From: Cohnella abietis
GTDB lineage: Bacteria; Bacillota; Bacilli; Paenibacillales; Paenibacillaceae
Direction: 5' to 3'
Assembly (NCBI RefSeq): GCF_004295585.1
Contig: NZ_AP019400.1
Location: 5,363,501-5,427,500 of the forward strand
Length of the DNA: 64,000 nucleotides
The position numbers and the translations under genes were made by a program. Of the stretch, positions 27,641 through 29,367 are shown piece after piece (position 1 is the stretch's first letter; every line of letters starts with the position of its first letter). The notes beneath the pieces were generated by a model. The model was not told where the DNA came from, searched no databases, and saw only the letters and a program-made list of their open reading frames with translations.

Positions 27641-27683
27641 TCAACAAAGGAGAGCTCCCGCAAGAGGGGCTCTCCTTTGTTGA
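27641..27683 (+). terminator. Terminator of the HD-GYP operon
   Basis: A perfect 15-bp stem (TCAACAAAGGAGAGC with GCTCTCCTTTGTTGA, loop 13 nt) starts right after the stop codon. The T-run is weak. It may serve clpP from the other side. Confidence 0.7.
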
Positions 27684-27713: not shown

Positions 27714-28298
27714 TTATTGCTGACTAGTAAGAACCGCATCAATTAGACCGTAGCTAACTGCCTCTTGCGCAGACATGAAGTAATCTCGATCTGTATCCTT
27801 GGCGATCTGCTCAATAGACTGACCGGTTTGCTTGGCCAGAAGCTCGTTTAATTTGTGCCGTAATTGAATAATTCTTTTTGCCCGGATTTGTATATCTGAT
27901 GCCTGCCCTTGCACCCCACCGAGCGGTTGATGAATCATGATTTCACTATTCAACAATCCGAAGCGTTTCCCTCTAGTCCCGCTGGACAGAAGGAAAGCCC
28001 CCATCGATGCGGCCATCCCCATACAAAGCGTACTGACATCTGCTTTAACATATTGCATGGCATCATAGATTCCCATTCCAGCAGATATTGATCCCCCAGG
28101 GCTGTTAATATACAGCTTGATGTCCTTGTCAGAATCATCAGCATCTAAATAAAGAATCTGGGCAATTACCGTATTGGCTACTGCATCAGAAATTTCTCCA
28201 GATAGAAAAATGATCCGATCCTGCAGCATCCGAGAGTATATATCGTAGGCACGCTCGCCCTTAGCGGTATTCTCCACGACATAAGGCACTAGATTCAT
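27714..28298 (-). CDS. clpP: ClpP-type serine protease (probable paralog)
   Basis: This is a full-length ClpP subunit (194 aa from the ATG at 28298, which has AAGGAG 9 nt upstream; a TTG one codon earlier is rejected). The triad is Ser98 (GMAASMGAF), His123 (IMIHQPLGG) and Asp172 (DTDRDYF), the same numbering as B. subtilis ClpP. The barrel needs an AAA+ partner such as ClpX or ClpC, and none is encoded here. No CtsR-type heptad repeat is seen upstream. It is the last gene of an operon with a MerR regulator and an unknown protein, so it may be a second, specially regulated ClpP. Confidence 0.92.
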
Positions 28299-28311
28299 CA
28301 AGTCTCACTCC

Positions 28312-28830
28312 TTATCCCTCTATCCGGTACTTTTTCTCCAAATCTGATGATGGGCTAGCATTGATTTTCCATACTTTTGGCTTTAAAGAATCACTGAGCC
28401 TCTGTTGCTCGCTTTCGTCATCAAGCAATGGAAGCTCTTTGATTCGGGTTACGACTTCTTCATCCACGACCACATTATTCATCTCGTTCTCATCCACTAC
28501 GTCGAGTGTTACACATTGCTGGACTTGGTTGGGAGCCCCATTTTCCGTATAAAATAACGTGAGCTCTATGGTCGTCCTCTCACATTTAATCGCCTCGCTA
28601 GTAAAAATCTCCATGTAAATATCATCTGGAGTGGACGGCTCATAAATGATAATTTCTCCGGAGTCATCCTCATGAAAGTGACTGAGATTTCGGCGGCGAT
28701 AAATCCCTTGAGGAAGATTAATACGTATTCGCGCATTCTCAACCTGACCAATTGCCTCTAAGTGGATCCAAAGATGATTCATACCCTCTTCATTCTCAAG
28801 CTGAGATTTGGCCAGCCTAACCGATATCAT
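28312..28830 (-). CDS. Unknown protein between MerR and ClpP
   Basis: The 172-aa protein is acidic and soluble, with no signal peptide or membrane segment. Residues 1-105 look beta-rich, as alternating strands around INLPQGIYRRRN and EIIIYEPSTPDDIYMEIF. An acidic linker (VDENEMNNVVVDEE) leads to a mixed-charge C-terminus (KELPLLDDESEQQRL). No family is recognised. Its ATG overlaps the MerR stop by 4 bp (ATGA) and has GGGAGGGGG upstream; clpP follows after 13 bp. Tight coupling to clpP suggests a substrate adaptor or a protected target, which is inference only. Confidence 0.8.
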   Translation of the reverse strand: MISVRLAKSQLENEEGMNHLWIHLEAIGQVENARIRINLPQGIYRRRNLSHFHEDDSGEIIIYEPSTPDDIYMEIFTSEAIKCERTTIELTLFYTENGAPNQVQQCVTLDVVDENEMNNVVVDEEVVTRIKELPLLDDESEQQRLSDSLKPKVWKINASPSSDLEKKYRIEG

Positions 28831-29246
28831 TGGTTTCCCCCTCCCGCCATAAGCTGGGTAACGGTGTCGATCACTCTGGTCCTCAGCTCAGGAGCAATTC
28901 GAGAGCTTATGGAAATAATGACATCCTCATTGATAACATGCGTTTCATGCTGGAGTAGTTGGTCTGATTGATACAAGGGGAGCTTCTCACCAATGCTGAT
29001 GATTTCCTCCATGGGCCGTCCTTGAAGCTTCTCTTGGATAGTCGCCAAGGTTTCTCCACTTCTAGACAAAGTAAGTATGGCGCGAAAATAATGAAGGTGA
29101 TTATCGGTATAAACCCTTTTATTCCCGACAAGCTCCAGCGCTGGGATAACACCAATTTGTGTGTAGTATCTGACCGTCCTTAGATTCATTTGTGAATCTT
29201 CGTTTTGCAGCATTTCAGCGATTTGCTTCGCGGTGTAATGATTCAC
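28827..29246 (-). CDS. MerR-family transcriptional regulator
   Basis: Residues 1-75 form a MerR winged helix (YTAKQIAEML, NLRTVRYYTQIGVIPAL, RVYTDNHLHYFRAI). The rest is short and predicted helical, with ISSRIAPELRTRVIDTVTQLM at the end; there are no metal-binding cysteines. The start is GTG at 29246 with AAGGGTGAG upstream. It opens the operon with the 172-aa protein and clpP, and a 28-bp palindrome lies 80-107 bp upstream, so it probably regulates its own operon. The inducer is unknown. Confidence 0.9.
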   Translation of the reverse strand: MNHYTAKQIAEMLQNEDSQMNLRTVRYYTQIGVIPALELVGNKRVYTDNHLHYFRAILTLSRSGETLATIQEKLQGRPMEEIISIGEKLPLYQSDQLLQHETHVINEDVIISISSRIAPELRTRVIDTVTQLMAGGGNQ

Positions 29247-29311
29247 TTCTTCTCACCCTTCCTGAGTGCATGATGGATATTTATTAGAATGATGTTTTTA
29301 TTATTTCACAC

Positions 29312-29353
29312 GTTACAGTAAAGTGTAATAGTTACAGTATACTGTAACTATTA
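29312..29353. promoter_or_regulatory. 28-bp perfect palindrome and extra half-site before the MerR operon
   Basis: Positions 29326-29353 form a perfect palindrome centred on GTTACAGTATACTGTAAC. A further half-site GTTACAGTA lies at 29312-29320, 19 bp away. On the minus strand TTACAC (29329-29324) and TAATAA (29304-29299) are 19 bp apart, the long spacer typical of MerR-controlled promoters, with the extra half-site inside it. The promoter call is an inference. Confidence 0.65.
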
Positions 29354-29367
29354 TTGAATTGCAAAGA

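Follow-up and report, generated by a model that had tools for sequence, protein, structure and literature searches.

In Bacillota, clpP is repressed by CtsR, whose site is a direct repeat of a heptad. HspR is a MerR-type heat-shock repressor of proteostasis genes and of its own operon. Classical MerR activators bind a dyad within a long spacer of 19-20 bp between the -35 and -10 boxes. In Streptomyces, according to the available part of one report, an extra clpP3clpP4 pair is driven by PopR, a paralogue of ClgR and an activator that is degraded by ClpP1P2 (PMC9765437). The available part of a second report describes ClpP-ADEP of Streptomyces hawaiiensis, an accessory ClpP that is phylogenetically distinct, works as part of the host Clp system and has its gene near the ADEP biosynthesis cluster (PMC12607617). 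A literature search found no paper on an operon of merR, clpP and the intervening gene considered here.

The window (the whole 64,000-nucleotide stretch of the Cohnella abietis genome that was analysed) contains three genes on its minus strand, hereafter the trio: a merR (28827-29246) that encodes 139 aa from a GTG start, comprising a winged helix-turn-helix and a small C-terminal strand-strand-helix region; a gene for a protein of 172 aa here called X (28312-28830); and a clpP (27714-28298) that encodes 194 aa. The reading frames of merR and X overlap by 4 bp, 13 bp separate X from clpP, and an inverted repeat between clpP and a convergent neighbour gene (27642-27682, read by eye) is likely a terminator shared by the two. 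Upstream of merR is a perfect 28-bp palindrome (29326-29353), which is matched nowhere else in the window with up to 3 mismatches allowed (none of 100 shuffles had a match), and no CtsR-type heptad repeat was found in the window at up to 2 mismatches (0.46 expected by chance). The ClpP scores 328.9 bits against a cut-off of 308.6 for the NCBIfam equivalog TIGR00493, and its catalytic triad is intact (Ser97, His122 and Asp171, in what we take to be B. subtilis style numbering). For X, no family was above cut-off in Pfam or NCBIfam, and there was no match in PHROGs or PADLOC. The preliminary description of this locus, a single operon of overlapping or closely spaced genes for a MerR regulator, an unrecognised 172-aa protein and a full ClpP, under a 28-bp palindrome and with no evident CtsR site, is thus borne out on each of these points.

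Species genomes were searched with 10 aligned X proteins, which yielded 47 loci, mainly in Paenibacillus, the rest being in Cohnella, Aneurinibacillus and a few others. In every one of them merR immediately precedes X, usually with an overlap, and in 19 clpP lies directly downstream; X has no adjacent clpP in the other 28, and none was seen elsewhere in their flanks (ORFs of at least 60 aa, 47 loci). Conservation of the trio as neighbours, on which the preliminary description had staked its proposal, therefore holds fully for merR and X and partly for clpP. Among 36 other genomes of the same genus, X is present in 6. Of 198 genomes of the order that were drawn separately, with some overlap, 39 contained MerR at E 1e-20, once in each; 30 of these loci were readable, 29 with X, 15 with a full-length clpP (that of C. 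abietis included) and one with a clpP fragment. At one locus (L155), as read by eye, merR is kept and X seems to have shrunk to its opening residues plus the tail. When 398 genomes were drawn from the whole phylum, X turned up in three: C. abietis itself, another member of its family and, as a weak and partial match, within a frame of 739 aa. A class-wide draw with a plasmid MerR described below gave 13 of 398 genomes, C. abietis included. Genes recurring within 6 kb beyond those of the operon were found mostly among close relatives, the widest group being present at 7 of the 47 loci (ORFs of at least 90 aa, a limit at which the small gene S, see below, is invisible).

In a tree of MerR and X together (46 of 48 rows; the MerR alignment omits L062, and the X alignment omits L032, whose X is disrupted by a frameshift or an error of assembly), the presence of clpP requires at least 11 changes, and clpP-bearing rows fall on both sides of the midpoint root (100/99 support). 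Recognisable pieces of clpP are present in 5 of the 28 loci that lack the gene (L019, L028, L047, L050 and, weakly, L022) and in two further genomes (L009/L160 and L142). From this distribution and these remnants, it is most likely that clpP is ancestral and has been lost repeatedly; judged from the sequences, merR-X is the stable core of the operon, from which clpP is often lost. The dN/dS of X was 0.19-0.35 in 12 pairs of loci without clpP and 0.12-0.33 in 20 pairs both with clpP (pairs selected for an X identity above 0.6 and a dS below 1.5), which indicates purifying selection on X also where clpP is absent.

The proposal of the preliminary description also turned on whether this is the only clpP of its genome. 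The C. abietis genome (7.06 Mb, one contig) encodes four full ClpPs, one shorter ClpP-like protein and one weak match. The other three full clpP genes are the tig-clpP-clpX copy, one beside a cggR-like gene and one beside an ECF-type sigma factor gene (neighbours named by eye), and their products are 64-65% identical to the ClpP of the window. Each of the 47 genomes has 3 to 7 matches to PF00574, distant ClpP-like proteins included; an Aneurinibacillus genome (G066) also has four ClpX-like matches, three of them at 49% identity. The ClpPs of the trio (20 rows, 19 with the complete triad and one with Glu171) form one side of a branch with SH-aLRT 99 against 61 other ClpPs, a fetched set rather than all ClpPs of those genomes, after removal of 12 identical ClpPs. 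With plasmid and wider members added, a single clade of 25 trio ClpPs was not rejected (p-AU 0.66), and a tree constrained to keep these rows together had a higher likelihood than the quick unconstrained one; in the enlarged tree one set consists of the 25 rows and a solitary plasmid ClpP on a long branch. This solitary ClpP, from the Priestia plasmid pMLY91_6 (L243 3501-4085), has no MerR or X frame visible beside it. I90L (Leu in 19 of 20 rows, Tyr in one) and variation at positions 82 and 112 hinted at an altered ATPase/ADEP pocket in the trio ClpPs, an idea that was set aside when the excess entropy at 13 sites that we take to form this pocket did not reach significance (p 0.09). A different extra ClpP, encoded beside an ECF-type sigma factor gene, forms a group of its own (6 rows, SH-aLRT 98; L003, L098, L101, L109, L116 and L127, the sigma genes being recognised by their match to that of L003), and a pairing of ECF-type sigma factor with ClpP is annotated on the Paenibacillus plasmid pHD04 (L244) too.

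Two mobilizable Priestia plasmids encode relatives of MerR (48 and 47% identity), and after merR each has one open frame, of 341 aa and 346 aa respectively (L228 4419-5444, L229 4404-5444), in which the X domain without its tail is joined to ClpP. In both public records the annotation covers just the ClpP part, beginning at an internal ATG, and omits the X part; this ATG has a purine-rich stretch before it (AGGAGG in one plasmid, AGGGGGG in the other) and may yield free ClpP. Between the two plasmids dN/dS is 0.07 for MerR, 0.10 for the X part and 0.03 for ClpP. The plasmid ClpPs group with those of the trio, and the fusion is known from these two related plasmids only. On both plasmids there are resistance genes within a few kb of the fused gene.

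Structure prediction of X alone, as proposed in the preliminary description, gave a model with a mean pLDDT of 84 from 47 sequences (91-97 by block over residues 1-130). It consists of a confidently predicted Ig-like sandwich (residues 1-113) and two short helices (114-131), followed by a low-confidence, apparently disordered linker and the tail LEKKYRIEG. The top 50 rows of a fold search (Z 8.9-11.5) include many Ig-like or similar sandwich domains unrelated to each other, so that the predicted fold is a known one that does not give the function. A profile of X had its best match to sequences of solved structures at E 0.13, and two single-member matches in Pfam pointed to the HSP20-like fold at E about 0.02. 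Conservation is strongest at residues 7-21 (mean entropy 0.56) and high again in the tail (161-169, 1.11), across a variable linker (133-160, 2.96). Among relatives the tail reads LEKKYRI(D/E), and its YR[IVL] is kept in 18 of 19 loci with clpP, the exception being the broken X of L032, and in 26 of 28 loci without; X and its tail thus do not need the operon's own ClpP. Up to 16 residues follow the motif in some members (many in L018, L041 and L057), which weakens a reading of the tail as a simple C-terminal degron. The sequence of X fits an adaptor, a tag and a target of proteolysis alike.

The MerR of the window has a MerR_1 domain (PF13411, 35.5 bits against a cut-off of 21.6), and its structure model matches chains of the MerR family with Z about 10 over roughly residues 1-81, the fold search covering mainly residues 1-85. 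A first putative operator, GTTACAGTATACTGTAAC (29331-29348), lies within the palindrome, and a second (29312-29329, 2 mismatches) lies 19 bp from it. Sites like TTACAGTNNACTGTAA are present at least twice in all 48 promoters (the 47 loci and the window) at up to 4 mismatches, as a raw count taken without a shuffle control, and neighbouring sites are spaced by exactly 19 bp in 64 of 72 cases. On the Priestia plasmids, too, merR is preceded by tandem operators with this 19-bp spacing. In the 48 promoters the best site is centred on what reads as a -10 box. With spacers of 16-18 bp, 27 of the 48 loci have a -35 box that matches at 5 or 6 of 6 positions, compared with 38 of 960 stretches drawn at random from these sequences. 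The putative -10 box of the window, TATACT (29336-29341, minus strand), is inside operator 1, and 17 bp from it is a putative weak -35 box, TTGCAA (29359-29364, minus strand; read by eye), the best available there at only 4 of 6. In the C. abietis genome GTTACAGTNNACTGTAAC has two matches at up to 2 mismatches, both at the operon; the reversed control likewise gave two matches per strand. With 1 mismatch allowed, 30 of the 47 genomes had a match, and there were 32 sites in all, of which 29 were assigned to the operon by contig coordinates and 3 lie elsewhere, as against 3 for the reversed pattern.

With operator matches almost only at the operon, MerR looks like a repressor of one operon, its own. 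Since the best operator overlaps the putative -10 box, with -35 matches scored at spacers of 16-18 bp, MerR looks like a self-repressor and not like a classical activator. The MerR-inducible ClpP of the preliminary description is accordingly in doubt as far as classical activation is concerned, and stands as a dedicated ClpP beside a MerR regulator.

Downstream of the plasmid fusion frame is a gene of 59 or 60 aa, here called S. A profile of S (in its alignment, rows L024 and L028 begin some residues late) identified it as the last gene of the operon at 17 of the 47 loci, 4 of the 19 with clpP and 13 of the 28 without, and did not find it in the stretch of the window searched, in the C. abietis genome or at the other 30 loci. 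Going by its position, S is a member of the operon in these 17 relatives, an addition to the trio first described, and probably the fourth gene of the ancestral operon. No family was above cut-off for four S proteins. Among the 198 genomes of the order S was found in 6, once weakly. In two genomes (G028 and G666; L248 and L250) S has no operon within about 1.5 kb and is perhaps the relic of a lost one, and at L235 (1232-1495) a deletion seems to have put S into a single frame with the beginning of X, clpP being gone.

Fourfold-site identity was compared pairwise among 28 genomes, 27 of the 47 and C. abietis. Between Cohnella sp. REN36 and P. albidus it is 0.36 for clpX, 0.82 for MerR and 0.73 for X; between Cohnella terricola and P. 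albidus it is 0.41 for clpX, 0.77 for MerR, 0.70 for X and 0.76 for the ClpP of the trio. The high identity of X relative to clpX indicates transfer between genera. X exceeds clpX by more than 0.15 in 25 of 378 pairs, a biased rate since the genomes were chosen partly for close X pairs, and clpX exceeds X by more than 0.15 in 161 of 378, so transfer can be claimed for some lineages only. At the limits used, the two Priestia plasmid records, found through MerR, are the only ones to carry relatives of the operon; no plasmid relative of the window X was found at E 1e-3, no phage relative of X or MerR, and no relative of X, plasmid X or MerR among viral contigs. In genome G826 the operon has a transposase-like gene, recognised by eye, in its vicinity (L231 1-856).

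Our working interpretation, which we hold with a little less than even confidence, is that of a mobile, self-repressed accessory Clp-protease operon in which X is the partner of ClpP. The ancestral gene order would be merR-X-clpP, with S probably fourth and possibly with a role in the system. By occupying tandem 19-bp operators that cover its own -10 box, MerR would hold expression low until some signal relieved it; the induced operon would supply an extra ClpP, predicted to be catalytically complete, together with X. As the operon encodes no unfoldase, this ClpP would have to use the host ClpX or a ClpC. X would work physically with ClpP as an adaptor or modulator; it is placed at the protease mainly because of the X-ClpP fusion, and its fusion to ClpP precisely where the tail is gone suggests that the conserved tail is normally a docking peptide, replaced by the covalent link on the Priestia plasmids. 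The dedicated degradation module first proposed thus draws support from the conserved gene order, the private ClpP clade and the in-frame fusion, and has to be qualified in that its core is merR-X and its clpP is often lost.

The frequency of that loss bears on what X does, since X without clpP at 28 of 47 loci could act on MerR or on housekeeping Clp, and the invariant merR-X pairing suggests that X and MerR may touch. One could then regard the operon as a sensor of Clp capacity, in which X is a co-repressor or anti-repressor of MerR and at the same time an unstable Clp substrate, so that overload or block of housekeeping Clp would raise X, release MerR and bring out spare ClpP. This would suit the pairing of merR and X at all 47 loci and at 29 of 30 readable loci of the separate, partly overlapping draw, their overlap and single-operon operator, the three other full ClpPs of the genome, and the precedent of PopR and clpP3clpP4 of Streptomyces, as far as the available part of that report describes it (PMC9765437). 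However, the X tail is not always C-terminal, unlike a degron that depends on its carboxylate, X is fused to ClpP on two plasmids, and more than half of the loci have no spare ClpP to supply; we consider a sensor possible but rather unlikely.

A bolder form of the partner interpretation, which we think doubtful, would make X a Clp partner of a new kind, placed at or docked to the ClpP ring so as to redirect degradation, in the plasmid version fused to the N terminus of ClpP and hence at the axial entrance. The mobile, self-repressed operon would then deploy the altered Clp particle on demand, and X would retune housekeeping ClpP once clpP was lost.

It is distinctly improbable that the operon amounts to just another extra clpP controlled by a local stress regulator, with X unrelated to proteolysis: extra ClpP-type genes are common (the 3 to 7 PF00574 matches per genome among the 47), but strict gene order, short spacing, a private ClpP clade and the fusion are not expected of such an arrangement. 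Least probable of all is a selfish, addiction-like module of an antitoxin-repressor-like MerR, a toxic X and an optional ClpP, for, although the patchy occurrence of MerR in the order, transfer in some lineages, the overlapping and apparently self-regulated merR-X pair and the internally deleted X beside an intact merR in L155 would suit it, X is predicted to be Ig-like, matches no toxin family and is fused to ClpP, and relatives were found in two Priestia plasmid records only and, at the limits used, in none of the phage and viral collections.

If X is indeed the partner of ClpP, the operon bears on the question of why some bacteria keep several ClpPs. Here, in some soil bacteria, one ClpP paralogue has a regulator and probably a partner of its own, a natural fusion and horizontal spread, and the trio would allow one to test directly for adaptors dedicated to accessory ClpPs. 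It could add a route by which ClpP is steered, beside AAA+ unfoldases and drugs, and the joining of X to ClpP on two plasmids is a hint that the operon is a device made specially for degradation.

Compared with known systems, the operon shares with the CtsR regulon a clpP that is repressed in Bacillota, presumably by MerR in this case, and differs from it by the absence of a CtsR heptad repeat from the window. Like HspR, the MerR of the trio would be a MerR-fold repressor of its own operon, but it is below the NCBIfam cut-off for HspR (NF047375, 23.1 against 105), and there is no dnaK-type gene in the operon. The ClpP resembles ClpP-ADEP as a phylogenetically distinct accessory ClpP, and differs in its company, no X-like or MerR partner being named for ClpP-ADEP in the available part of that report (PMC12607617). 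The closest parallel is with PopR and clpP3clpP4, where a regulator likewise drives an extra ClpP beside housekeeping Clp; as far as that system is described in the available part of the report (PMC9765437), the trio is set apart by a regulator that is not an activator of the ClgR/PopR type but a MerR-fold protein and likely self-repressor, by an extra gene for a predicted Ig-like protein, and by horizontal transfer.
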